Below the pieces are notes generated by a model. That model had not been told where the DNA came from and made no database searches. It saw nothing but the letters and a program-made list of their open reading frames with translations. A DNA stretch of 64,000 nt. Source: Sclerodactyla briareus (lineage: Eukaryota > Echinodermata > Holothuroidea > Dendrochirotida > Sclerodactylidae). The first letter of the stretch is position 1. Every line of letters begins with the position of its first letter. Location: NCBI GenBank assembly GCA_026419785.1, contig JAODTK010003355.1, positions 108,632 to 172,631 of the forward strand. The letters are read 5' to 3'. Position numbers and translations under genes: made by a program. This document shows, one piece after another, positions 11,752 to 59,450 of the stretch.

Positions 11752-12535
11752 CTACATTGCGAACCCTTTGTGGAACTGCCTTTGATGGACTCGGAACATG
11801 GGATAATTCGTGACATTATTTACATTGCCCTTGCGATGTACCACTTCGAACAACGGCTCACACCAGCCTGCGTTGTGGGGTTCTCCATTACCGTTTCTGC
11901 CGTTGCGTTACATTCGATTCTGACAGAGTAAAATCGATCTTACCTGTTTGGGTCGCCTCTGGATTGGCTGCTGGTCGCACTGCTCCTGGCGTCTCTCGTT
12001 CCGCGTCTGTCCTGCGCCCAGGCTTGATGCAAGATTCCCAGGTAGGCGAGTACATTGTGATAAGCGGGGCCCTGGGAGATACCCCAGCAGAGAAATGGCC
12101 TCGTATGTTGAGAGAGTGTAGGTTCCACGGGAGACACACCGGTGAACTATGTCGAAGCCTAATTTGCCCACGTCGAAGGCGACCGGTGGAAGAAGAGCGA
12201 TAGTGATCGCCGTTGTTCCAGATGAAGAGATCCGGATTACGAAGCACTTCGGTTGATAGATCTTCCGGTAGATACGGCTGACCGCAGATCAGGATAAACC
12301 GGTGATTGCGTAGCTGTCATAGTAAAAGCACTAGCGCCCAGCGCATGTGTTAATCGACAGCTATTGTACGTACGCACAGTTGTAGTGCGGGGACGAGTCG
12401 TGACCAGGTCCGTGGCTATGAACAACGGCAGAGTCAGAATAGCCAGAAGGTCGGCGATCGCGAGGTTTACGATGAAAACTGTAGAGGGCGTGTGTAGCTT
12501 CCTCGAGAGTAACACTGGGCCATGAGAACGGAACA
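11752..12535 (-). CDS. rhodopsin-family GPCR, TM2 to C-tail, frame broken
   Basis: The minus strand encodes VFIVNLAIADLLAILTLPLF, the NLAxADL motif of transmembrane helix 2 in class A receptors. A cysteine-bearing loop and a helix-3-like segment follow. In the next frame come HRFILIC, where D/N-R-Y is usual, and SRIYRKIYQPKC (loop 2). Then ITIALLPPVAFDVGKLGF resembles helix 4 and HRC the conserved loop cysteine. The end shows NVTNYPMF with VHQRQFHKGF, which could be a decayed NPxxY and helix 8. Helices 5 and 6 are poorly preserved. The style resembles orphan melatonin/opsin-like receptors expanded in invertebrates. Several indels are required. A pseudogene is as likely as sequence error because helix 6 is not convincing. 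Confidence 0.6.
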
Positions 12536-28498: not shown

Positions 28499-28758
28499 GT
28501 CATTCAGCGCCGTCTCGACGGGTCCGTCAATTCAACCGAACATTTGCCGAGTAACCCAGAGGATTCGCGATCTCTCCGGAGATTTTTCTGGCTTGGAAAC
28601 GACAATTTAGTCGCCGTGACGAAGAGCTCCGAAACTGAACTGAGGGTCGAAATGGGCGACTGGGAAAAGGGGCAACGCGCCTACGCCAATACAGGTGGTG
28701 CCGCGTGGAAGGCGCGGCAAAGCTACCGTTTGTCCCTGGGGGGATATAGGAACATCAG
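28499..28758 (+). CDS. fibrinogen-related protein, central FReD exon
   Basis: The acceptor ttacacag is followed by VIQRRLDGSVN, then in shifted frames NRTFAE, and then FWLGNDNLVAVTK, LRVEMGDWEKGQRAYA and YRLSLGGYR, ending at CAG|gtaatg. V-I-Q-R-R-x-D-G-S-V, F-W-L-G-N and Y-R-L-x-L-G-G-Y are invariant landmarks of fibrinogen domains in this order. Frame breaks lie in TCAATTC (one T short), GAGTAACC, and GAGATTTTTCTGG (T run). The exon sits 1.07 kb downstream of the stalk exon. It precedes the 4-kb duplicated unit and is therefore single-copy. Confidence 0.9.
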
Positions 28759-30359
28759 GTAATGATTCAGAAGTTAGAATGCCGTCACACGGATGAACCT
28801 CACGAGTATAACTAAGGGGTCGGGATGCTGCGTATGCGAGGCCCTATCAGAACCTTTTATTTTTTTTTTTTGCCCAAATTGAGAAGAATGGCTACAGGAA
28901 ATCCAAGGCAATTGAAACATTACCCGCTCCACAGAGAATTCGGGCATGTTGGGTATTACTTTTTTCTTTATTCCTTGCGTTATCTTTTTCGCCCCTTCCT
29001 GCCCGCGTACAAACCGTAGGTGAAAGGCTTATTCGTAATGAGAGAACATACATTGTACAACAACCATACCCTTTCGGCCCTTATAGAATGTCGCCTATCC
29101 TGTCAGTTCAACGAAAGGTAAAGTGTAACCGTCTTTTGCTGTCGAAATGTAGCTTGTGGATCTGTATTGTTATGAAAAACAAAACAATCTTTAGTTTCAG
29201 CTATCGAAGAGAGATTTCCAGTTCAAACCCAAACCACAATGACTGCAACTTAACTATATATAAGACTATGCACATATCACTCATCACTGAATCAAGCTTT
29301 CCGGCCCTGGAACGCAGTCATCGACAAATAACCACATCTTCTGTTGCATAGTTTATGCATTCTAAGCAGTAAGTGGGAATTGAATATTTTTGTCTAAACA
29401 TTATTAATAGCGCTAATCACTTTTCTAACGCTGTACTGCCAATCACTGTGTTATTTCCTGAAATTTTGTAAATTGGTGGATGTGGAAGTTATTTCTTCGT
29501 TCAAAATCTGTGCGCGTTCCAGAAGGGATGTAAAATAGTGTTAACTGTGGATAGCCTATTTGTTTTTTTTAGTGTATTGTTGCCGAAGATCAATTCCTGC
29601 GCGCGGAGACGATAATCGTCTAAGACTGTTCCCCGGGGAACCCACGGCGGGATTCGGTGTTGGGCCGCCACTCGCAACACCATATGGCTACTATGCTGAG
29701 ACGATTTCCGTTTTTCATTCACATGGAGTCACTACATCGAGACCGTATTACACTTGACGTCATTCAATGACGCCGTCACTTCCCGCCGCTGCTACCCATC
29801 CGTTAAGGCTCTAATCGACCTCAATGTCGGGTTCGGAAAATTTGTGCGAGGTACCCTCCATAAGCATCGAAGAACGGGCCTCAATTATGTTGCTTAAAAC
29901 AAGGCCATGCAAGTCCATTCACCCATAGTTAGAGATTTTTTTTTCAATCTAGGCGTGTAGTCCATAGGCCTTACAAATGAATTGCACATAACAACTGCAA
30001 GTCGGAACGTCTTGGTAGCTAGCGGACATCAAAATTCCCAGCTGGCGAATCACTGCATTGTTTTTCGCCATTTCACATTTATTGTTTGTTCACACTTAAC
30101 TGACCGTCTACTGAAAAAAAACCCCATTCCTGTCATAACCATGGAATGACTTGGAACATGTCTAACCACATGGCCTAATATTTGCTATCAGTGCCTATTC
30201 CTAAGCCTGTGGGCATTGAACAGTGGACACACACTTCCAACAGAAATAATATCTAACATGTTGACACTCATAGTTATGTTGAAGCCCTCCACAAGTTACC
30301 ATTGAAGAGCATGAGGTAGGGGGGGAGAGGGCGGCAGCCCCCATTTCTCGGTCACCCAC

Positions 30360-30510
30360 TGAGGAATTGGACGGAGATTAATGTAAACAATCCTGTGGAG
30401 GCAGGGTCTAATGTAAACTAGGGCGAGAATTGACCGAGATGTAATGTAAAACAAGCCTGGGAGGCAGGGTCTAATGTAAACTAGGGCGAGGATGGGATGA
30501 AAGACAAAAT
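30360..30510 (+). repeat. short tandem repeat, about 70-bp unit
   Basis: The phrase gtctaatgtaaactagggcgag occurs twice with similar flanks (ggaggcagg before each). An equivalent pair is present in unit B at about 34400-34530. Confidence 0.65.
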
Positions 30511-30999
30511 TATGTCCCCCCCGGACAATAGGTTTTATTGTCACTATTCTGCAGACTGGACCTTCTGACAGAGAAGGTAAACACTGCTCATCCCGCAGAG
30601 GAATGGGAGTAATGTAACAAACTTGTCTGGCAGTAGAAGAGCTCAAAATAAAGTTGGAAATTGGGGGTATTACTGGGATTCAATTAAGATCTAATAACAC
30701 TATATGCGAACTAAATGTCGCTAAGGCTACCAGTACACGCTTCATTCATCCACCCACCAGTTTCAAACCCTCAACCTATCGCATTTAGGGTAGAAGTTTC
30801 GAATGAACGTGACGAAAAGAAGGGACGAACGAACAGACAAACTAACGAACAGACGGTCGAGAGAAATGATTACTGTAGATCTTCTCTCAAAAAACCGCAG
30901 CTAAACAACCCACAAAAACGTCAGCTGCTACCACTCGTTCTGCCCCCGCTTGCTCCCAATTGTCGGGTCTGGAAGATGCCAAAAGGTCCTGGTCCCAAC

Positions 31000-31170
31000 A
31001 TCCCTATAACTCGGGAAATCTGCGTTTGTGCGAGGTACCCTCCATAAACATCGAAGAATGGGCATCAATTCTGTTGCCTAAAACAAGGCCATGTGATTCC
31101 ATACACACTGTTAGCGATCCCCGAATCTTTGCGTGTAGTCCAATGCCTAACAATTCAATTTTCACATGAA
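31000..31170 (+). repeat. internal repeat of unit A start
   Basis: This region (tgcgaggtaccctccataaacatcgaag and onward) is a diverged direct copy of 29825-29995. The same pair recurs in unit B at about 35030-35200 and 33855-34030. An older short duplication therefore predates, or is nested in, the 4-kb one. Confidence 0.75.
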
Positions 31171-31221
31171 AAAAAAAACAACAGGGTGGTCTAATTTTAT
31201 TTTATATTCCTCATATCGAAG

Positions 31222-31478
31222 GAGATTCCCTGGGCTACCACGACGGGAGCCGCTTCTCTACCTATTACGTGGACAATGACGCTTCCGGGAACCGAAACGG
31301 CGCCCTCCGTCACGGGGCGGATGGTGGTTCGGGCGTTGTAGAGGTCCAACCTTAACGGGCAGTACCTCCGACAGGGCGACTATGACACTTTCCCAGAACG
31401 GTATCGAGTTTTCCCAGTTCCGATGACTCAGATACTCATTGATGTCACGGTAAATGCAGAATACGCCCGGGAGTCTAG
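31222..31478 (+). CDS. fibrinogen-related protein, last FReD exon, copy A
   Basis: After a tcgaag acceptor the exon reads GDSLGYHDGSRFST and VDND, then a G-G-W-W region in broken frames, SNLNGQYLRQGDYDTFP and GIEFSQF. It ends close to a TAG. The D-x-D-N-D calcium site, the Cys/N-L-N-G-x-Y pocket and the final M-K-I-R-P are FReD hallmarks. The terminal MKIRP is damaged here by an inserted base but is clearer in copy B. Downstream sequence to about 33.8 kb would be 3' UTR and intergenic DNA. It lies in unit A of the 4-kb tandem duplication. Confidence 0.85.
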
Positions 31479-32394
31479 TCTTCTCTGGATTCGCTGAAAT
31501 TGCAGGATAATAATTACCGACCACCGCGATTGCTCGGATGATGGACAGGCTACTGCGATGAGCCCTGGTTGTTTATAGGCCCCATCCACCAGTCCACGTT
31601 GAGACTCAATGGTTACCGGAAGTACCTTCTGGTCTGCATCAGGGAATCCGAACTTGTGTTTTACTACTAAGAAGATTTACTTTCCTCGTTGAATCGAACG
31701 ACACCGCTCTCTCCAACAACGTCTGAAATGTGCCTTCACAGCGAAGCTGTCCTGCTTCATTTGTTAATGAATGTCGGTCACTGCTTGCAGTGGGTGGGGC
31801 GGGTGGGGGTTGTCTGCTGGTAATATTGAATCAACAATAATAATCATTATTGTCATGATATACATTTCTAATGTTATTTAACACTGCCGCTACCATATAG
31901 GGGAGGAAGAAAAACACATGTAGATGGGTAGAGCGGCAATAACCCGTTGGGCAATCGCTATCTACAAGTGGTATCGCGATTTGACTATGGTAAAATGCTA
32001 TAATTTAATCAGCATAAAAAAATACGAAAAAGTAACATGCCGTTCTTTATTCACTTGCATCGCATTTGCCTAATTCACGTATATTGAATACTTAATGGAG
32101 ACTGGCGGGATAGTACAGTGTTCGTAACATGCGCTTTACGCCGGGGAGGGGATGTCGATCGCAGATAGTGGTGTTATATTCTTCCTATGGTGTGATCTTA
32201 GTCGATCACACCAGAGACTTTACCGAGAGTGCCCATGAGTACAGAAACTTCGGCTTGCCCTTTCTATTCGTCGATGAGATGTGTAATGTTACTCTCAGTT
32301 GGTTTAAATGATATCCATCAGGCTTCTTGAACGTTTGAGTAACTCTCATCTCAAAGGCTGGATGAGGAGCAAAATGCAGCACATTGATTAGTTT

Positions 32395-32655
32395 ATTCCA
32401 GCTGACTCCTGAAGTCCAGTCGCGTACCGAGAGATTATCCTGGGGAGGGGGGGGGGGGCTGATTCGGAACCCCTGGAATTGCGCCCATCATTCATGGTCT
32501 CAACCCTCCCGATTGGCAACTAGTACAAACACCTGCTGCTGCAATATTTTGCTAATAAACTCCAGCAAAACCTTTAACTGAACTGCCAAACAATAGTTTG
32601 TGCGTTAAAAATGTATTGATAACTGGGTCATGGGGGTCCAACACCCCCCGTGGGT
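32395..32655 (+). repeat. dispersed repeat with G-run (copy in unit A)
   Basis: The sequence gcgtaccgagagattatcctgggg and what follows, through ctgctgctgcaat, to gtcatgggggtccaacacccc, matches 1010-1275 and 36405-36655. There is no open frame. It is likely a short non-autonomous element. Confidence 0.7.
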
Positions 32656-32679
32656 CGCCACTGACTAAGTTGATCCTTG

Positions 32680-33560
32680 AATGACCTTTGACCTGTAATT
32701 TCTCTGAGCACCCCCTTTTTACTATGTCACTGAACATCACTGACCAACTTTCATGACCGTCCGATTTATTTTGTGAGAGAAGAACTTGCTTGACCATTCT
32801 CAAAAATATCTTAAATTGGCCACTACATGATCTTAGACCTCCATTCCTGAACAACTCATATGTAACAGTGGTCAGTGATATTACTGACCCCTTTCATGTC
32901 ATCCCCGTCTGTATTTGTAGGAGTAGAAGCGGCTCGCTCTGCGACAAAATGGGTAATTTGACCCCTACTACTTTGACCTAAAATTCCTGAACATCTCATA
33001 CTTAAACCATTTGTCAATTATAATAACTGAACAATTTTCATATCTTCCGATATATTCTTCATGAGTAATCAAACTAGACGTTCAAACAAATACCGAAATT
33101 GACCCATAGTGACCCTTGATTCCAAATTTATGATAACCTCATGTGGCATTGGTTCAATGATAATACTGACCCACTTCATTTCATGATCATCGCCGAGTCT
33201 ACACCGTAGCGGTGGGAGCCGCTTAACTGTTCTGCTAAAATTACCCCTAGATGACTTTGACCCATATCCTAATATCCCATATACACTATGGTTATGGTAA
33301 TGTACTGACTAACTATTATGGCCATCCAATTCATTTAAGAAAGAGAAGATGTGTTAAAAGACCCTTGGAAATGACCATTCTGGACTAAATGATCCTAAGT
33401 GACCTTGCATTCAAATCCATGAGGAGCAAGGTAAGTAGCATGGTTCCCGAAATACTGACCACCCTCTCATGATCATCCGACTCGACTGTAGAAGGAGAAG
33501 CATTTTTGCGTAATTTCACAAAATGGCCAAAATGGACCCTGAAATGATATTTAACTCATT
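32680..33560 (+). repeat. diverged 144-bp tandem array, unit A
   Basis: About six diverged units each contain a tgaccttTgacc-like start, a ctgaccaactttcatgatcatccga core and an A-rich ttcacaaaatggccaaaatt end. The core recurs near 32747, 32891, 33035, 33175, 33319 and 33464, giving a period of roughly 144 bp. No coding potential is seen. Confidence 0.75.
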
Positions 33561-33570
33561 TTCGAACAGG

Positions 33571-33665
33571 TAGATAGATAGGATAGATTAGATAGATTAG
33601 ATAGCTAGATAGATAGAAGAATAGATAGTGAGTAGAAGATAGATAGATAGAAGATAGATAGATAG
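33571..33665 (+). repeat. GATA microsatellite, unit A
   Basis: Imperfect tagatagatagga/gatagata repeats directly follow the 144-bp array. Confidence 0.9.
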
Positions 33666-35245
33666 ACGCAGTGTGAAACATGGACAAGAGGGTGTGGGAA
33701 AGGAACAGCTTTACATGTTCCACGATCACGTGATCGTTTCTTGTTTGTATGTTTATTCGATATGATTCGAGGGGCCGGAGATTGGGATTCACGAGTCTGC
33801 ATAGTTAGCAGATGATACATCAGGATCTTACAACCGGTTAGCTCTTTCGACCTCAATGTCGGGTCGGAAAATTTGTGGCGAGTTACCCTCCTAAGCATCG
33901 AAGAACGGCATCAATTATGTTGTTGCTAAAACAAGGCCATTGCAAGTCCATCAACCCATAGTTAGAGGATTCTTTTTCAATCTAGGCGTGTAGTCCATAG
34001 GCCTACAAATGTATTGACAACAATAAAACAAGCGCAAGTCGGAACGTTATTGGTAGCTGCGGACAGCAAAATTCCCGTGGCGAATACATCTGCAGTTTTT
34101 CGCCATTTCACATTTATCGTTTGTTCACATTTAACTGACCCTCTACGGATATGTCATAACCATGGAATGCCTTTGAACATGTAATACAAACACTTGGCAC
34201 CTATATTTGCTATCGTTGCCTATTCCTAAGCCGTGGCAGTGAACAGTGCAACACACTTCCCACAGAAATGTATATCTAACATGTTGAACACTCATGTTAT
34301 AGTTGACCAACAATCCACAAGTTAAAACCTGAAGCATGAGGGTAGGGGGGGGGGGGGAGGCGGGCCAAGCCCCCATTTCTAGGTCACCCACTGAGGAATT
34401 GGACGGAAGAGTAATGTAGACAAATCGGTGGAGGCAGGTCTAATGTAAACTAGGGCGAGAAACGAGAATTGGACAACCGAGATGTAATGTCAAACAAATC
34501 CTGGGAAGCAGGTAAATGTAAACTAGGGGAGATGTGATGAAAGAAAAATAATGTCCCCCTGGACAATAGGTTTTATTGTCAACGATTCGGCAGAACTGCC
34601 TTCTGAAGATAAGGTAAACAATGCTCAGCCAGAGGATGGAGTAATGACAACAAACTTGTCTGGCAGTAGAAGAGTCTCCAAAATAAAGTTGGAAATAAAT
34701 TGGGGTTAATTAATGGGATTCAATTAAGATCTAATAACACTATGCGACATAAATGTAGCTAAGGCTAGCCAGTAGAAGCGTCATCCACCCACCAAGTTTT
34801 CAACCTGATCGCATTTTGGTTTAGGAAGTTTTGAATGAACGTGACGAACAGAAGGGACGAACAACGGACGACACGAACGAACGAACGAAGACGGAGAGAA
34901 GAGAGAATGATGACTTGTAGAGTGCTCTCCCGCAGCTAAAACAACCCACATAAAGTCAGCTTACTACCACTAGTTATGCCCCACATGGGATCCCATGTGG
35001 CCGGGGTCGGAAGATCGACCAAAAGGTCTGGTCACATCTATAACTCGGGAAATATCGTTTGTGGAGGTACCCTCATAAACATCGAAGAATGGGCATCAAG
35101 TGGGCCTAAAACAGGCATGTGATTCCATACACACATAGTTAAGGATCCCCTATCTTGGCGTGTAGTCCACAGGCCTCTAACAATGCAATTCAACATTAAA
35201 AAAAAAACACAGGGTGGTATAATTTATTTATATTACATATCGAAG

Positions 35246-35502
35246 GGAGGAGTTCCAGGGGCTCCCCCGACGGGAGCCGCTCTACCTATGACGTGGACAA
35301 TGAAGTTCCGGGAACGAAACTGCGCCCTTCCGTCACGGTGGCGGGGAATGGTGGTTCGGGAGGTTGTATGAGGTCCAACCTTAACGGGCAGTACCTCCGA
35401 CAGGGCGACTATGACACTTTCCCAGACGTTCGACGTGTCCAGTTCCGGGACTCAGATACTCATTGATGTTACAAGGAAGATGAAGATACGCCGGGAGTCT
35501 AG
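35246..35502 (+). CDS. fibrinogen-related protein, last FReD exon, copy B
   Basis: This is a second copy of the 3' FReD exon, 4024 bp after the first. It retains the acceptor region and SNLNGQYLRQGDYDTFP, and reads ATGAAGATACGCC (MKIR) near the end, with a TAG nearby. Its frame breaks fall at different positions from those in copy A. It has no copy of the two preceding FReD exons. If real it could act only as an alternative 3' exon or be a dead copy. If the tandem unit is an assembly artefact it is the same exon sequenced twice. Confidence 0.75.
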
Positions 35503-36404
35503 TCTTCTTGGATTCGCTGAAATTGCAGAGGATAATAAATACGCGATTGCTCGGAGGATGGAAAGGCTACTGCGATGAGCCCTGGGTTTAGAGGCCCATC
35601 CACCAGTCCACGTGGATGAGATCAATTGGTGACTGGAGTACCTTTATTGTCTGCATCAGGGACACGCGAACTGTGTTTAATACGAAGAAGATTTAAAGGT
35701 AGTCGATTGAATCGAACGAAACGCTCTCTCAACACGTCTGCCAATGTGCCTCCACTCCGAAGCTGTATGAATGTCATTTGTGATGATGTCGTTCATCTGG
35801 CTCATGTGGGTGGGGCGGGTGGGGTGTCTGCTAGGTATATGGTAATCACCAATTACAGTTAAATCATTTTGGAATGATTACATTTCTAATGGTTATTTAA
35901 CACTGCCTGCTAACATATAGGGGAGAGAAAAAACACATAGGTAGATGGGTAGACGGCAATACCCGTTGGCAATTCGCTATCTACAAAGTGGTTATCGCGA
36001 TGTGACTATGGTAAAATAAACATGACCAAATTTAATCAGCATAAAAAAAAATAACGAAAAAGTAACATTGCCGTTCTTTATTTCACTTGCATAGATTTGC
36101 CTAATTAACGTATAGTGATACGGTATCTGGGTAGGAGACTGGCGGCGAAAGAGTACAGGGTTCGTAACATGCGCTTTACGACGGGGAGGGGGAGGGTTCG
36201 ATCCGAAGGATAGTGGTTTAATCTTTCCCTAGGTGGATCTTCGGCTTGCCCTTTTAGTCGTCGATGAGATGTTAAGGTACTCTCAGTTGGTTTTAAATGA
36301 TATCCATCAGGCTTTACTGAACGTTCGGAGGAATCTCATCTCAAAGCGGGATGAGGTAGGCAAATGCAGCAATTGATTAGTGTATGCCAAGGCATGACTA
36401 CTGA

Positions 36405-36655
36405 AGTCAGGCGCGTACCGAGAGATTTATCTGGGGAGGGGGGGGGGGCTGAGGTCGGACCCAAGGGAAGTGCGCCCCTCATTCATGGTATCACTCTCCC
36501 TATGCAAATAAGTACAAACACATGATGCTGCCATCTGCTAAAAATAACAGCTTGCAAACCTTTACTGAAATGCAAAAAATAGGTTTGTGCGTTAAAAATG
36601 TATTGATCACTGGGGTCATGGGGGGTCCAACAACCCCCCGGGGGTACGCCACTGA
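36405..36655 (+). repeat. dispersed repeat with G-run (copy in unit B)
   Basis: Same family as 32395-32655, at the equivalent position of unit B. Confidence 0.7.
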
Positions 36656-36679
36656 CGAAGTTGATTCCTTGAATGCACA

Positions 36680-37575
36680 TTTGACCTGTATTTTGAGCAC
36701 CCCATATTTACTATTAGTCCCTGATATCAATTGACCAACTTTCATGACCGTCCGATTTATTTTGTGAGAAGAAGAACTTGCTTTTGGACAATTTCAAAAA
36801 AATATCTAAATTGGCCATACCATGACCTTATACCTCCAATTCCTGAACCACGCCATAGTGACATTGGTCAGTGATATTACTGACCACTTTCATGATCATC
36901 CCGTCTGGTTTGTAGAGAAGAAGCGGCTCGACTCTTCGAACAACAGGGTAAATTTGACACCTAGAGGACCGTTTGACCGAAAATTCCCTGAACATTCATT
37001 CTTCATTTGTCAATGATAATATGAACATTTCATGATCTTCAGATCTAGTCTAATGAAGTAGAATCAACTAGACCCGTTCAAACAAAATAGCCGGAAATTG
37101 ACCATAGATGACCTTGATTACAAATTATGGAATACCTCATGTGGCATGGTCAATGATAATAACTGACCAACTTCCAGTTGATGATTAATCGATTACACCG
37201 TAGCGGTGGGAGCCGCTTAACGTCTTGCTGAAATAACGACCTAGATACCTTTGACCATATCCTCAATAATCCCCATATAACACTATTGGTTTGTTTTTTT
37301 AATGGTAATACTGACTAAACTATTCATGGCCATCCAAGTTCAATCTATAGAAAGAGCGTATTTTTTGTTAATAAGACCCATGAAAATGACTTCTGGACTA
37401 AATGATCCCCTAGTGACCTTTCCTAAATCCTGAGTAGCAAGTAAGTAGCATTGGTTCCCGATAATACTGACCAACTATCTGATCAGGCCGACTATGACTT
37501 AGAAGAGGAAGCTGTTGCGTCATTTCACAAAATGGCCAAAATTGACCCCTGAATTGATATTTAACCCTCATTTTC
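36680..37575 (+). repeat. diverged 144-bp tandem array, unit B
   Basis: This is the counterpart of the array in unit A, with cores near 36739, 36887, 37028, 37169, 37321 and 37473. Confidence 0.73.
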
Positions 37576-37581
37576 GAAACA

Positions 37582-37700
37582 GGTAGATAGGATAGATAGA
37601 TAGATAGATAGATAGATAGTAAGCTAGATAGATAGATAGTAGATAGATAGATAGATAGATAGATGATAGATAGATAGATAGATAGAATTTTAGATAAATA
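37582..37700 (+). repeat. GATA microsatellite, unit B
   Basis: A longer version of the GATA tract in unit A, at the equivalent position. Confidence 0.9.
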
Positions 37701-39289
37701 GGACGCAGTGTCTAACATGCGACAAGAGGGTTGTGGAAAAGCTATTTCAAATGTTCCACGATACAGTGATCGTTTCTGTTCTTTGTATTTATTCGATAAT
37801 GATTCGAGGGGCCGGAAGATTGGGATTCACTAGTCTGCTAGTTAGCAGATATAACATCAGGATCTAAACTCACAGAGAGGCGCGAAGAATCCTTGAGTCT
37901 TTTGGCCTGGGTTAACTTGATCCAAAGGAAGATTTAGAGCTGAATTAGTATCGAACTTTTTAAGCGTAAGGCCTGCATATTAAACCAAATTAGATAGCAG
38001 AGCCTGTCATAACCAGGTAGAGAAAAAAAGAACGTTAGGTTGGAGGAATCTCGACGGCGATTTTTTTATTAGTAATAGTAAAATAGTATAGAAGGAAAAT
38101 AACTACAACAGGTGGCGGGCGGTGGTTGAGATTAGAAGACATGCCATTGATATACAGGAGAGAGTGGAGGCGCGGGGCGCAGCAACCATCGCAAACGCGA
38201 AGGTTTTCGATTTCGAGGCGACATATTTGAATTATTTCTGAGATTGCAGAGGTGTAACTGCGGAGCGCGTTGAAGCGCTATCCCCGCCTCAGGGGGTAAA
38301 CCATGGAGCTATATTATTAACTGGAGGAGGACATCAGAGCGCCCGTATGGTGTGCCCTGTCCAATTTCGGTCTCAGAGAACACAAACTCGACGTGAGGCG
38401 GCGCCCTATTGTGTGAAACATCGTAAAAACAGTCGGTTTGTTCACTCTCTATCCGCGAATTTCTTCGACCAGAGAGCCCCGAAACTACGTCGTTGCTCCT
38501 TAGTAAGATGTATATTATAGTGCAAGGATTCTGCAACATCTTCAGTGTGTGTTACCCTATTTCAGAAAACGCGGGAAATCAGTCGATTCATACGGAAGAC
38601 AGAAAACAACATGATGAATTCGGAATTACGAATCGATTGCGTCTGGCAGAATTCCCCATCTATGCGTAAGGTATGACACACGGAGTGAACTAGATTGCTT
38701 AATAATGAAGCTCGAATTAAAGAGGCTGTCAAACGGAACATATTACCAATCTTCTGCGAAATGCGAACCATTTCGCCGCATGACTGTCTCTATAGCTATA
38801 CATAATTGAGGGCGCTGGCACAGGTTAGCAACCGGCGGGTTTCCAAACTGACTCGGTTGTATAGGAGCTTCAGTACAGCATGTCCGGGGCTTGGGTTGGT
38901 AAACCAACATGACCACCATACGTGTGTCTTCACACTCGATCTTCTGGGATTGCGCACCGCTCGTCATCTGCAGTTGGTCACGGGAAAAACTCGACTACAT
39001 CAATGGAGGACCGCGTGACGTTACGTACCACTGTGAGTGCGACCGCAAAGTGCTGTTTGATTCGAAGACGGGCATGTATATATGACTTGATTTTAGGCAC
39101 TTTTTTGTATTTTTGCATTGCGGCACCAGACGAATTTCGGCCGATCTGAATGCGCTGACTATTGTAAAACTCGCCTTGTGACGTCACGGGGGAAAGCGGG
39201 ATCCCCCCGTGAAACCAGGTACTTTTGAAATCCCGACGAACGAACTAGGATGGTTATTCAAAATGTAAAAAGCGTGACAAGAATCGATG

Positions 39290-47286: not shown

Positions 47287-47700
47287 AACCCCCCCCCCCC
47301 CCGGAGCTCCTCAAAGCTGCGCTGCCATGAGCTCGGGGGCCATATGGCGGTAGGACAAGAAACTCACCCGGATCTCGTTCACACGGGGACACGGTGGGCA
47401 GGATTCATTCCCCGGAAGGCCCCCCCCCCCTGTAGCTCCCCTCAAGCTGCGCTGCCACCATGAGTACGGGGGCATTGGCCGTAGGACAAGAACCCACCCG
47501 ATCTCGTTCACACGGGGACACGGTGGGAAGGATTGTTCCCCGGGAGGCGACCCCCCCCCCCGGTGCTCCCTCACAAGCTGCGCTTGCCCTATACGTGAGA
47601 GTTATTGCGGGGGGGTGGGAGGACAAGACCCCAACCCCGATCTCGTTAACAGGGACCGGTGGGCAGGATGGTTCCCGGGAGGCGCGCCATAGGACAAAGG
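47287..47700 (+). repeat. GC-rich minisatellite, about 130-bp unit
   Basis: Three to three and a half units each have a poly-C run, ctcctcaaagctgcgctgcc, ggtaggacaagaa, cccgatctcgttcacacggg and ggtgggcaggatt. Repeat landmarks occur near 47380, 47510 and 47645. Open frames on either strand follow the repeat and are not genes. Confidence 0.85.
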
Positions 47701-53930: not shown

Positions 53931-54819
53931 TAGATTTTATCTCTACCTAGCACCTATGCGCCAAGCCAGGTCACCATAGCACCTACGGTTCATCGAAATC
54001 TTGCTGAAGAGCCCAAACACTAAATTAACAATAACATATGGCTAATTACCCTACCTAATCCGTGACTTTGCCGCTCAAAATCTAATCAATCATGTTCAAC
54101 ACCCAACCCTGATACTACATACAAAATTTCAACAAAACTGGCCTCACCGTTTGGGAGGTATCCTGCTAACGAGAAAGTGGACACCACAACAAAGTGATAC
54201 CTAAGTCCCTCCTTCTAAACTTTGTTCAGGCAAGACAACAAAAGCTGTCTAACTCCCTCATGAACTGAGAACTACGATTACTGCTGCTCCCACATTTTAT
54301 TTTTCCTCTGTAAGACAGTTTGCCTCCGGCTCCAACAGCGTGAGGGGTTGTACGATCTCAATGCGACAATGCTATCAAAAATAATTCTGGCATATACCTA
54401 GGACCATTATATGTGTATGTATATTTCATACCACCTAGAAGAACTTTACTTCCTGGTGTGAATCAAGATTTGCCAAGTTCTAGGTCAATTTTTGGTCCAA
54501 TTTATTATGCTCCTCTGTAATGTTTTGTCCTACTGCATTCACTGGGATGGGTGATTCCCTTCAATATATATATATCTGGCATTTATTTTTCCATAGAGTG
54601 ATTTTTCAATTCTCAGCGACGAACAACCTCTCCACCCCCCCCTTATCCCTGAACCTTGGTGGAAGGGCGGCAAAATATGTTTATGGTGCAAGCTGGATGA
54701 AATCTTGCAGGAAAATCAGGAATCTTATATCTGTAAATTTTACATATATCACAACCAAACCCAGTTTTCTGAACTTTGTGTTCGGGGGACAAAAAGTAGG
54801 ATCTTGATTTCCTAAATAC

Positions 54820-54928
54820 CTTCGGGTCGTACTCCAATGAGCCGCTGGTCAGTTGGGGGCGCCGCAGTGGCATTCCTTCTTCTCGTTACCCAGGCTCTCA
54901 AGGTTGTAGTTAAAGTTCAGCTCAGAGT
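54820..54928 (-). CDS. NSD gene, end of SET and post-SET exon
   Basis: The exon follows a tgcttgcag acceptor and continues in phase from the SET exon: SELNFNYNLESLGNEKKE, then CHCGAPN, then a C-S-G segment, ending at AAG|gtattt. F-N-Y-N closes the active site. The CxCxxxxC pattern of the post-SET loop binds zinc together with the RFMNHSC cysteine. A stop (TGA) follows A-P-N in the literal reading. It vanishes if the known family pattern N-C-S-G-F is assumed, which takes small indels at TGACCAGC and in the GGCTCATT stretch. I therefore read it as a functional exon with base-call errors. Confidence 0.9.
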
Positions 54929-55455
54929 CTGCAAGCAAAGTAACAAATGAATGGAGATGAATGAATCAGCAGCTGCAAATACATCTCTGGGAGGAAGGCT
55001 CTGCGCACTACCCGACAGATGTCCTACCTGAGTAGAGTATCGAGGTTATGAATTGATTTGATATTTAAATAATAATAATATCTCGTTCTTATATAGCACT
55101 TTTTAGGGTAAGAAATATGCTCTCAGTTCTCCACATTCATTACCCCTGGTCACTAGGACTTGTCACACCCCTACTATACAGCACACACCTGTCGCTTGTT
55201 CTCTGCCGATGTACACATTACAGTTGTCACTCATCGTGTCTCCTGGGGATCTTCCCTTCCCAAAGAAGCGGTTGTCACATAAGTGCGGATATTCTCCACA
55301 AGGCACCCCACAAGGTACCCACTTTAACACGTGGGTGGCATGGGACATGGACGTGGGAGGCATAACTTATCCAAAACTCCTCTTCTCACCGTGAGCCTTC
55401 CCCTCCAACTCATAGTCCCCACCCCTAGTAGGTTTTCATTGCACCATCTACCAAC

Positions 55456-55714
55456 CTGCTGGTATGTCATTGAGGGCGAACAGCCCGACCCGGGTGTCCC
55501 CGTTGACGGTCCACTTCGGGTTCTCGCAGTTGGGCTGGCAGGAGTGGTTCATGAAGCGAGACAAGTTCCCCTTTGGGCCCGCGTCGATGATCCTCTCCTT
55601 GTCGATCGTCAGGAAGTAGAAGTCGGTGATGTTGTTCTCGTGGGCCTCGACGATCCGCTTCCGGCACTCGTCCTCGTCAACCAACTCGCCGACATACTCG
55701 TTGACAAACTCACC
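55456..55714 (-). CDS. NSD gene, catalytic SET-domain exon
   Basis: This uninterrupted 259-bp exon after a ctacccaaag acceptor carries the catalytic core of an H3K36 methyltransferase. It starts [17 protein letters not shown], continues with [21 protein letters not shown], then [16 protein letters not shown], and ends [24 protein letters not shown] is the SAM-binding pseudoknot motif, and the D-x-G-P-K-G-N stretch is typical of NSD. The donor is CAG|gttgg. The last codon is split and completes as GAC with the next exon. No disabling change is visible, so the enzyme looks active here. The protein acts on chromatin in the nucleus. Confidence 0.97.
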
Positions 55715-56379
55715 CTTTGGGTAGGAACGGCATAGATAAGCCACTTTACACTCGAGGAAATATGTTATTTTAATATTATTACTGATATGGTGACATAGGT
55801 CACGTGTAATGCACGTTTGGGTTACAAGCAAGGGTGGCACCAGGAAGGAGGCCAGTGGGTCCAATCGCCCTTATCAGCGAAGCCTAGCCTGAAATGTTCC
55901 CATTTTGTCGGGAAGCTAAAGTAGGGAGCATATTGTATCAAAACAAGGGTTACTTGTAACCTCAGGATATTGAGTGCTAATTTTATAATTGAGGCTAAAA
56001 TTGACAACAGAGATAAGAAAAAATGGGATAATGGAAAGATGAACACCAACCCAATAGGCCCAAGAGTTCTGGACCTATTGTGTCCACAGGGTTTTTGGAC
56101 TGTGACCTCTGCTGACCTTCGACCTGACCACAAATCAATGGGAATCATGTACGAAGATTTGTCTGTTACTTTACTAACAAACTCGGACAATGTGTGGTAA
56201 AAAACTAGGCTGATTGCCCTAAATTCAGGGAATTTTCCTGCCCAAAATCTAATGCGACTAAATTCACCCAACCCTGATACCACAAAAAAATTCATAACAA
56301 ATTATTACAATTCCAGAGAATTGGATTAACAGACAAGCATGACCACACACATACACAAAGCAATTTCATGGTATTTACA

Positions 56380-56495
56380 ACTAAGGCCTAAAAAAAAAAA
56401 TTGTTTGTTTGTCCTCCACCGCCCGACCGAATTTTCCTTCCGCTCCGAACATATTTTTACTTTCAATATTTTTTTAATTTCTTGTTCCGCTTGCA
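56380..56495 (+). repeat. short dispersed repeat aggcct-poly(A)
   Basis: Starts aaggcctaaaaaaaaaaatt, then tgtttgtcctccaccgcccg and gaattttcc. The same order is found inverted at 57612-57716. Confidence 0.6.
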
Positions 56496-57232
56496 AACTA
56501 TTACATTTCCGTCACAAAAAACTTTCCATGTTCGATCGTCGTCTTAACACACACTATAAACCCAATCATACACATACCTGTGGGAGTAATGCCAGTCCGT
56601 GACGCGTTGACTCATCGACCGATCGATCGATCGATCATGACCTGTCCTACCCTTGCTCTTATTACCCCCGAAATTCTACTCCCGCACTTACAATTTAAAA
56701 GTTTTCGTAGCCTAGAACAGGGAACATTGGAGCCGCGCGATGCACGGCGGTGCTATGTAATGGCTTGGAAACGTTCGTCACACAGATCAAATTACTGACT
56801 GGGCCTGGCTGCGTGGTTCGCGGCGATAATGCATATAACAAGTGCCAAGAAGGAACACCTTACTAAACTTTGGAGCAACTATCAGTGTTGCCACTTCGCA
56901 CCTGAGATGTAAGAATAGTGAAAGTTTTGCAATAAATTTCTGAATGAAAAACAACAATCATTGCAATGACATAGGAAATTTGAGCATAATACCTTCACTA
57001 TCAGTGTGAACTGTCAAATTCCTGTCAAGAAAATAAACCTTCAGCCATACAAATTTTAATAGTGTTCTCATACAAAATGTAGCAACGCTGATGAGAGCGA
57101 CAACACAATGTGGGGCTGATAGCACTTCTTCGTTGTATATTTCTTGCAACTCGCCGAGCGTGCGCTCCCGGACACCACTCAAGTAGTGTGATACTACACA
57201 GTGCCGATCACTAGTACTAGCAGGGTCTAAAC

Positions 57233-57427
57233 ATGGCGTCGTACACGCTCGGAGTTCTGTGTAAACTCGGCGTTAGAATTATTTATGACCGAATTTGCAC
57301 TGTTGTGACGAATTCTACCCTGAAGGAGATTTTTGATCACCACTTAGGCAGTGTGGAACAAAAGCGATTCAGACATACTTCTGAAAAATGTGAGAGTCGC
57401 GGAGTCACGAAATGGCCCATAGTGTGA
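57233..57427 (+). other. possible start exon on + strand inside an NSD intron
   Basis: An open frame begins AACATGGCGTCG, a good start context, and encodes MASYTLGVLCKLGVRIIYDR and further residues to a stop. It lies antisense within an NSD intron. The family is not recognised. It may be a small gene, a first exon or chance. Confidence 0.2.
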
Positions 57428-57611
57428 TATAGGACCAGATGAATTGGTGTCAATCTTGGCGTGGTTTTTGCATGCGAACTTCCGGTCACGGTTTTGCTAC
57501 TTAACTTTGTACTTGTACGGTTGCAGCGGAAATGAAGCTGCTGATGCAGCTAGTACTAGTGTGCTGGGGAACGGAACGCTTTTAGTGTCCCTTTTTCACT
57601 ACTTATCTGCA

Positions 57612-57716
57612 AATCTGCGTTCCAAAAAAAAAAAAAAAAAAAAAAATCCGCCCGCCTGTCCGCAATTTTTCAGGGGTGTGGAGGACAAACAAACATCTTT
57701 TTTTTTTAGGCCTAAT
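57612..57716 (-). repeat. short dispersed repeat aggcct-poly(A), inverted
   Basis: Inverted counterpart of 56380-56495, with poly(A) of over 20 and poly(T) runs. It lies just after the pre-SET exon in the NSD intron. Confidence 0.6.
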
Positions 57717-57783
57717 GGATATAACAGGTGAGCCTTTGACTCCAATGCTGGAAAAATTAAGTTCAGGGAAGATGGATACACAC

Positions 57784-57903
57784 CTTCTTGATGTCGACAT
57801 TGGTGAACAGCCCCCACCCTCTTTCCCCAGTTTTTTGGTGCGGCAGAGGGGTAGAGTCTCTTCTGGAACCTCTGGTTCTCACATTTGTCTCCTGCTGCGC
57901 AAA
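57784..57903 (-). CDS. NSD gene, AWS end and SET start exon
   Basis: After a ttcattcag acceptor the exon reads VCAAGDKCENQRFQKRLYP, then, in the neighbouring frame, TGERGWGLFTNVDIKK before an AAG|gtgtgt donor. C-x-N-Q-x-F-x-K-R-x-Y-P is the AWS/SET boundary of NSD enzymes. G-W-G-L is the first SET strand that binds S-adenosylmethionine. The frame change falls in a run of six A (CACCAAAAAACTG), and a base is probably also missing at the splice junction, where a G is expected before TTTGC. Two compensating errors leave the exon end in phase 0, matching the SET exon start. Confidence 0.9.
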
Positions 57904-58909
57904 CTGAATGAATAGACACAGAGAGTAGTTCCGATTCCATTCTTCAGAACGAGAGTAGCTCATCAGGCAGCATCATTGGAAATGAGGAGTTCGCCCCTCC
58001 GATATGAACAATTTATGGGTGGACATATCAGCAGACATGCTCAGTATGAACACCTGATGGTACAGGCCTCTTCGATCACCTCTTATAACTGCATAGTTTG
58101 ATTCAAATTCTATGGGTACAGGGAGGAAGCCAAGTAAATTTCACCAAGAAACCATGGCTGTATTGATCGAGAATGAGCACCGTTAATAACTCGCCTCCTC
58201 TTCTTGACTAGTGCTCAGATGATACCGAGGCAGAGGTGTAACTAATCCTAACCCGCTCCCGGGAGTGCCACATCTGGAAGGACGATCATGCTCTGACCAC
58301 TTTTTCGGAACCTGGAGGAACGGATTTCACCGCGACTGTTTACAGCCGACACTTATTGCAAACCTCCCGTAACAAACTCCAGCAAACCCCCAAAAGACCA
58401 CAAAGGATGAACTGTCACATTTCCAGCTTGTCCTAATAGATATGATCGAGGAAATTGATGCATAAACACTGGTGTCAAGGGCAAATCATCCTCTTGTGTT
58501 GTCTCTCACAACAGGGAGAGAACATGACTGGAAAAGTTACTGTCACAATAACCAGGGCAGTTAGCTGTTGGATAAGGGCATTCAGGCTGCTCTCTTTGAG
58601 TTGAGCTGATCACTGATTGGCTGCAAGAGAAGCCACAACTCTAGTCACGACCTGGAGACCAGGGGCCGTCCAGGCCTAACACTTGATTCAGGGAAGCGTG
58701 TTGAAGAAAGCAGGGGTGGAGAAATTAGCATTTATAATAACTTGAGTTGCGTCGCCAATGCTCCCCAAGTAAGCAGTCTGCTACACACGATCGAGAGTGG
58801 TTGGCAGTCCCTTTGTACAATGAACTATCGACTGCATACGGATATCTAGATTAACTTCTACAGAGCTGTAGGGGAGGGGGGGGGGGGGGATGGGGTCAAT
58901 AGGCCTCAC

Positions 58910-59056
58910 CTGAGGGTGACACTCGACCATCAGTAGCCTGTTCATACACTCCGTGTCCGACCTGCAGGGGTGCTCCATGGAAGGCTTGCAGTCACACGCT
59001 GCACAGGAAGAGATGTCAAACACTGGCATTTGCACATTGCCCACTGGTTTGTTGGT
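58910..59056 (-). CDS. NSD gene, AWS-domain exon
   Basis: This is a clean open exon between a tttctccag acceptor and a CAG|gtgagg donor. It begins TNKPVGNVQ and continues through CDCKPSMEHPC, then TECMNRLLMVECHPQ. The ordered cysteines and the ECxNRxLxxECHP pattern are the AWS (associated with SET) zinc-binding domain of NSD proteins. This domain packs against the catalytic SET domain. No frameshift is seen. A 14-base G run lies just downstream in the intron at 58876-58889. The N-K-P-V-G start favours the NSD family over the related SETD2 and ASH1L families. Confidence 0.93.
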
Positions 59057-59450
59057 CTGGAGAAAAACAAGAACAAAGTGGTTACAATTATTGGAGAGAG
59101 CCATCTCCATATGTCACGATCCGGGAGTGTATGCGCGCCCTGGAACTATGAGATTGAAATGTTGCAGTATCATCTGCACTTATCGCCGTTTACACTTCTT
59201 GTAGAATCAATGTAGCCCAATGGTTACATAGGTTGGGGGTGATATGCAGAGAGTCCCTGGATTTTTTTTTATTCTCTTCACCCTCTTGTGTGTAGGGATT
59301 GCCTCACATACCAAGGTTTCTATGTATTAATCCCTCCCCTTTGACACTTCGATCAAATCAATGTTATCCATCGTTCACAGTTGTCACTATTCAGGATGGA
59401 GGTTTAGGCGATCAAATCTCGAGACAGCCCCTCTCGGACCTGCCACTCAC

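Follow-up and report, generated by a model that had tools for sequence, protein, structure and literature searches.

A 4-kb tandem pair in a contig of Sclerodactyla briareus is most likely an assembly artefact

Within a 64,000-nucleotide stretch of the holothuroid Sclerodactyla briareus (NCBI GenBank assembly GCA_026419785.1, contig JAODTK010003355.1, positions 108,632 to 172,631 of the forward strand; hereafter the window), two direct copies of a 4.0-kb segment stand head to tail, each carrying the last exon of a gene for a fibrinogen C-terminal domain protein. We regard this pair as most likely an assembly artefact of low biological interest rather than a gene duplication. At a probability of roughly 75%, it is a false duplication of a single locus in the animal, caused by an unmerged overlap between reads, and the probability that it is a false duplication of one kind or another, through such an overlap or through haplotypes, is slightly higher still. 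In the mechanism we propose, the animal would have one locus, and two long reads from opposite strands with 4 kb in common would have been placed end to end without merging their overlap. Each copy would then derive from one read or very few, the change of read would lie at the junction, neither stretch would have been properly polished, and the direction of the errors would flip between the copies through the opposite read strands. We favour this mechanism because the sign of a strand change between the copies, their abutting edges and the lack of demonstrable real divergence all fit it.

Geometry and spectrum of the two copies

Self-comparison of the whole window recovered the pair as direct copies in collinear order, offset by 4.03 kb and matching in two pieces, of 82.1% identity (29808-32199 with 33841-36241) and 81.7% identity (32248-33828 with 36239-37865). 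Together with a global alignment, this bears out a sequence-only reading of the window, which had described a tandem pair of complete direct copies about 4.0 kb apart; its left edge, at 29816, was slightly late, as the core of copy 1 begins at 29808 and its edge lies near 29797. The pair and its parts are as follows.

29797-33828, plus strand: copy 1, from self-alignment; firm core 29808-33828, left edge shifted by local alignment
33831-37865, plus strand: copy 2, from self-alignment; firm core 33841-37865, left edge from local alignment
33828-33831, no strand: copy junction; at most 2-3 extra bases on the local-alignment edges, by eye without microhomology
29990-30915, plus strand: dispersed repeat in copy 1 with many relatives genome-wide, the outgroup for polarising errors; counterpart in copy 2 at about 34024-34950
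32177-32247, plus strand: stretch of copy 1 that is some 50 bases shorter in copy 2 (48 going by the two BLAST pieces); no other single difference is as large
33571-33666, plus strand: TAGA array of copy 1, 79% matches, 16% indels

Sequence from 33831 onward can be aligned to the bases left of the copy 1 core, starting at 29797, so that the copies abut within 2-3 bases, although the fit is a modest one, its score being equalled by 55 of 2000 random flanks. Given this modest alignment to the copy 1 flank, a 12-base joiner or read adapter at 33829-33840 was set aside. No gap marks the pair, the window containing 0 N. The counterpart of the TAGA array in copy 2 (37584-37686) is more regular, at 89% matches and 5% indels. 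Within each copy, a short direct repeat flanks the dispersed repeat (29841-29936 and 31025-31118, 86% in copy 1).

Global alignment of the two cores (29808-33828 and 33841-37865) gave 3488 matches, 248 mismatches and 357 gap events covering 574 gap bases, with one-base gaps making up 263 of the gap events and indels of 7-14 bases also separating the copies. Gap events outnumbered mismatches under four of six scoring schemes, which upholds by pairwise count the claim of the sequence-only reading that indels exceed substitutions; the two schemes with the lowest mismatch penalty relative to gap opening reversed the excess (303 substitutions to 299 gaps and 357 to 276). Each of the 22 bins, at most 200 columns wide, contained differences, and the sole outlier was the bin with the stretch at 32.18-32.25 kb; when halved, the differences amount to an error per copy of about 7.5% (counted as events) or 9.5% (as columns). 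The mismatches comprise 45 transitions and 203 transversions, a transition share of 18%, with A/C (82) and G/T (77) exchanges accounting for 159 of the 248. Even with all transitions taken as genuine, the true divergence by substitution would be about 2% at most, and it is possibly none.

As a control, we used 30 relatives of a second dispersed repeat, at 38301-38894, which grade from clean into noisy with no clear break between the two. Six clean relatives differed from their own consensus by 29 indel events and 201 substitutions, 118 of which were transitions. Set against these six, the duplication has an indel:substitution ratio about 10 times as high (Fisher p = 4e-36) and about a third of the transition share (Fisher p = 4e-19); both p values are only indicative, as the six were hand-picked from the 30 after the data had been seen. 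The pair thus displays neither the substitution-dominated divergence nor the clean-repeat transition share of a genuine old duplication, and the former, which the sequence-only reading named, together with accurate spanning reads at normal depth, as what would show a genuine older duplication, was looked for and not found.

The fibrinogen-domain gene extends into the duplication from the left, and its exons, with one exon of another gene as a clean control inside the window, give a further view of the errors.

28499-28753, plus strand: upstream fibrinogen-domain exon, outside the duplication; Pfam PF00147, E = 1.3e-9; noisy
31221-31470, plus strand: last fibrinogen exon, copy 1; 4 frame changes and 1 stop, 249 nt; edges approximate
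35246-35500, plus strand: last fibrinogen exon, copy 2; 6 frame changes in 211 aligned nt; edges approximate
55454-55729, minus strand: exon for the SET domain of an NSD-type gene; matches NSD2 (9cvd) at E = 5.8e-47 and reads intact over 276 nt, with 0 frame changes; clean control within the window

A hand-made query pieced together from the reading frames of the last exon matched tachylectin-5A, FIBCD1 and ficolins (best E = 6.3e-12). Because the frame breaks differ between the copies, they were probably introduced into an exon that was still intact. Over 249 nt of the upstream exon, frame-aware alignment counted 1 stop and 5 frame changes, the latter falling to 4 when the penalty was highest, and the idea of a clean exon at 28.5 kb, which had come from the Pfam match, was dropped once the frames were read. 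Scans of whole frames did not recover the gene: a Pfam search with three forward frames of the duplication returned 0 families, and one forward frame searched against PDB gave a single chance-level match (E = 0.85), the minus strand of about 29.45-38.0 kb lying outside the scan.

Direction of the errors and type of read

Mismatches between the copies are strongly asymmetric. The combinations of C in copy 1 with A in copy 2 and of T in copy 1 with G in copy 2 occurred 114 times against 45 for the reverse (p = 4e-8), and 10 of the 10 full bins lean in this direction, the last two weakly (8:7 and 5:3). Polarised against relatives of the first dispersed repeat, copy 1 carried 37 private substitutions and copy 2 carried 26, with A>C plus G>T against C>A plus T>G at 14 to 6 in copy 1 and at 5 to 13 in copy 2; the consensus rests on 11 of 20 relatives chosen after the data had been seen, whose range overlaps that of the others and which include one relative (L028) with a lopsided count of its own, 11:1. 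Inserted bases were left out of this polarisation, since a repeat unit present in both copies is absent from the consensus. The same trend appeared in another element, at 32417-32660 (15 relatives, noisy alignment), with 8:4 in copy 1 and 5:7 in copy 2, and with both elements pooled the copies differed in error direction at Fisher p = 0.01. One-base insertions and deletions relative to the repeat consensus numbered 13 and 20 in copy 1, and 18 and 18 in copy 2. A combination of one clean and one noisy copy was ruled out, errors being present in the exon and the repeat of both.

These counts suggest A>C and G>T errors in copy 1 and their reverse-strand equivalents in copy 2. The copies therefore have the look of reads from opposite strands that were poorly corrected, because a single miscalling bias read on opposite strands would produce opposite leanings. 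One-sided counts of A>C plus G>T against C>A plus T>G recur in several further copies of the first repeat at other places in the assembly (0:17, 2:13, 18:5 and 21:10). That the direction of A/C and G/T miscalls records the read strand throughout this assembly is a tentative generalization, somewhat short of an even chance; if true, the finished sequence could by itself reveal false joins and the points where one read gives way to the next.

In the available part of one comparison of long-read errors (PMC7671305), PacBio reads show slightly raised A<->C and G<->T exchanges, insertions far above deletions and few substitutions, and Nanopore reads clearly raised transitions. The 159 of 248 mismatches in the A/C and G/T classes agree with the PacBio substitution pattern described there, and the 45 transitions among the 248 show no rise of the Nanopore kind, while the near-equal shares of insertions and deletions fit Nanopore better. 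The sequence is not plain raw PacBio, and partial correction is assumed; with moderate confidence, we take it to be partly corrected PacBio. The case for read error is independent of the platform. The indel excess, the bias to A/C and G/T, the strand asymmetry and the differing frame breaks all back the error signature of long reads that the sequence-only reading had recognised.

Evidence against an unmerged overlap and alternative explanations

Several observations weigh against an unmerged overlap of PacBio reads. Noise is not special to the duplication, being present at 28.5 kb, through the whole pair and in a repeat beyond its right edge.

38301-38894, plus strand: dispersed repeat right of the duplication; noisy, with 20 one-base indels against the six-copy consensus (clean relatives 0-5 each)

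Since the unduplicated flanks are noisy too, noise alone is neither a mark nor a proof of a false join. The right flank at 38.3 kb moreover leans 10:5 to the direction of copy 1 (11:9 with stricter columns), which counts against the reading because one read running through copy 2 into the flank would give the direction of copy 2. The asymmetry between the copies fades in the last 800 bases (13:10), and two alleles could truly differ in the stretch of about 50 bases that copy 2 lacks. As to the reads, an older review holds, in the part available, that PacBio errors are unbiased (PMC4719071); the A/C and G/T excess is strong here and only slight in the corresponding part of PMC7671305; and the pair shows neither insertions far above deletions nor few substitutions, the latter making up 41% of events. 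Finally, 36 other loci yielded no second case of the same size, each locus being shorter than 4 kb and so too short for a 4-kb pair.

Some of these loci do contain direct pairs, one with 71 mismatches and 32 gaps (L036) and one of about 500 bases with 39 mismatches and 44 gaps (L042). A further place (L051/L059) was considered as a second case of the same fault and rejected as a noisy multi-copy tandem array; in L059 (G000:C3052:24000-33900), units about 1.3 kb and 1.9 kb long recur several times, with pairwise identities of 80-84% and many gaps. The 2.9 kb of the duplicated segment beyond its repeat had no near match outside the pair among the 40 of 1857 candidate places that were scored in the assembly (319 Mb, 3171 contigs). 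At those places, it matched only partially (67-76%) or briefly, the short matches falling in the TAGA array.

The strongest alternative, which we consider unlikely, is a real and very recent head-to-tail duplication, diverged by about 2% at most and lying in an unpolished stretch, so that noise was added on a true pair. Copies that abut, noise in the unduplicated flanks and a right flank whose error direction departs from that of copy 2 are all compatible with it, and the tandem array at L059, noisy and perhaps real, is present in the same assembly. Such a duplication would, however, require an age too young for a transition excess to have accumulated and a change of read strand between the copies. 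Should the pair prove real, it would amount to a recent tandem duplication of an ordinary kind.

Far less probable is a haplotype origin, in which two alleles, each built from a few noisy reads, would stand in tandem. The sequence-only reading had left the choice between a false duplication from two haplotype contigs and a very recent real duplication in an unpolished assembly; of these, our results favour the false duplication, its haplotype origin being improbable. The missing stretch of about 50 bases and the indels of 7-14 bases could be allelic, and duplications of this heterotype kind are the main false duplications in other assemblies covered by the available part of PMC9516828. Transitions are few, however, leaving at most about 2% of real substitution divergence and possibly none, and no unduplicated haplotig was seen among the 40 of 1857 candidate places scored. 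Two haplotypes and an unmerged overlap are hard to tell apart on the assembled sequence. An old real duplication, mutated to an overall identity of 82% with which it would be compatible, is rejected as extremely improbable on its substitution and indel spectrum, namely the 18% of transitions and the tenfold indel:substitution ratio, and on the breakage of a conserved exon in both copies, unless some unfamiliar mutation process was at work.

The stretch around the duplication is poorly polished, and the assembly seems to contain such stretches elsewhere too. Dispersed-repeat copies on other contigs (L009-L028 and L029-L058) vary widely in indel load and transition share. In the window itself, a rhodopsin-type G protein-coupled receptor fragment (12315-12515, minus strand, PF00001, E = 1.1e-7) seems by eye to lose its frame soon afterwards, through read noise or as a pseudogene, and one frame of this stretch searched against PDB gave no match. 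A 129-base minisatellite at 47291-47589 has 2.3 units with long C runs at their start, 82% matches and 10% indels. The SET exon belongs to an NSD1/2/3-type histone methyltransferase gene (54400-59200, minus strand), in which an AWS-like exon near 58907-58972 scored 23.0 bits, just below the cut-off of 23.3, and is open by eye, and a post-SET exon near 54.9 kb, unscored, looks frame-broken by eye.

Read literally, the window would show a fibrinogen-domain exon that was duplicated and became a pseudogene, and indels that seem to have evolved in a burst; most likely neither is true. Gene counts, pseudogene calls and repeat ages taken from this assembly need care, because similar noise is found in repeat copies on other contigs.

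Comparison with known duplications

Like a gene or exon recently duplicated in tandem within a ficolin-like family of fibrinogen-domain proteins, the pair stands head to tail and includes the terminal fibrinogen exon. It is unlike such a duplication in the scattered indels that break the frame of both copies and in a spectrum that differs from that of the clean repeats of this genome. With heterotype false duplications, as described in the available parts of PMC8081667 and PMC9516828, it shares the display of a single locus twice; these require allelic divergence, whereas the substitutions here permit about 2% at most.

The closest likeness is to homotype false duplications, an assembly fault that the available part of Rhie et al. 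2021 (PMC8081667) describes as tandem, with copies of roughly read length near contig boundaries, arising from boundary overlaps or sequencing errors. In the cases described there, a contig boundary and a scaffolding gap often lie between the copies; the pair here is gapless, and its copies have been left at about 7.5-9.5% error. Homotype copies are near-identical and in tandem, and the 4.03-kb pair has a real divergence of about 2% at most. They differ by sequencing errors and not by haplotype variants, as the indel and transversion spectrum indicates here, the stretch of about 50 bases being left unexplained. As to a contig boundary or unmerged join, the error direction flips between the copies, the window contains 0 N, and the right flank does not carry the direction of copy 2.

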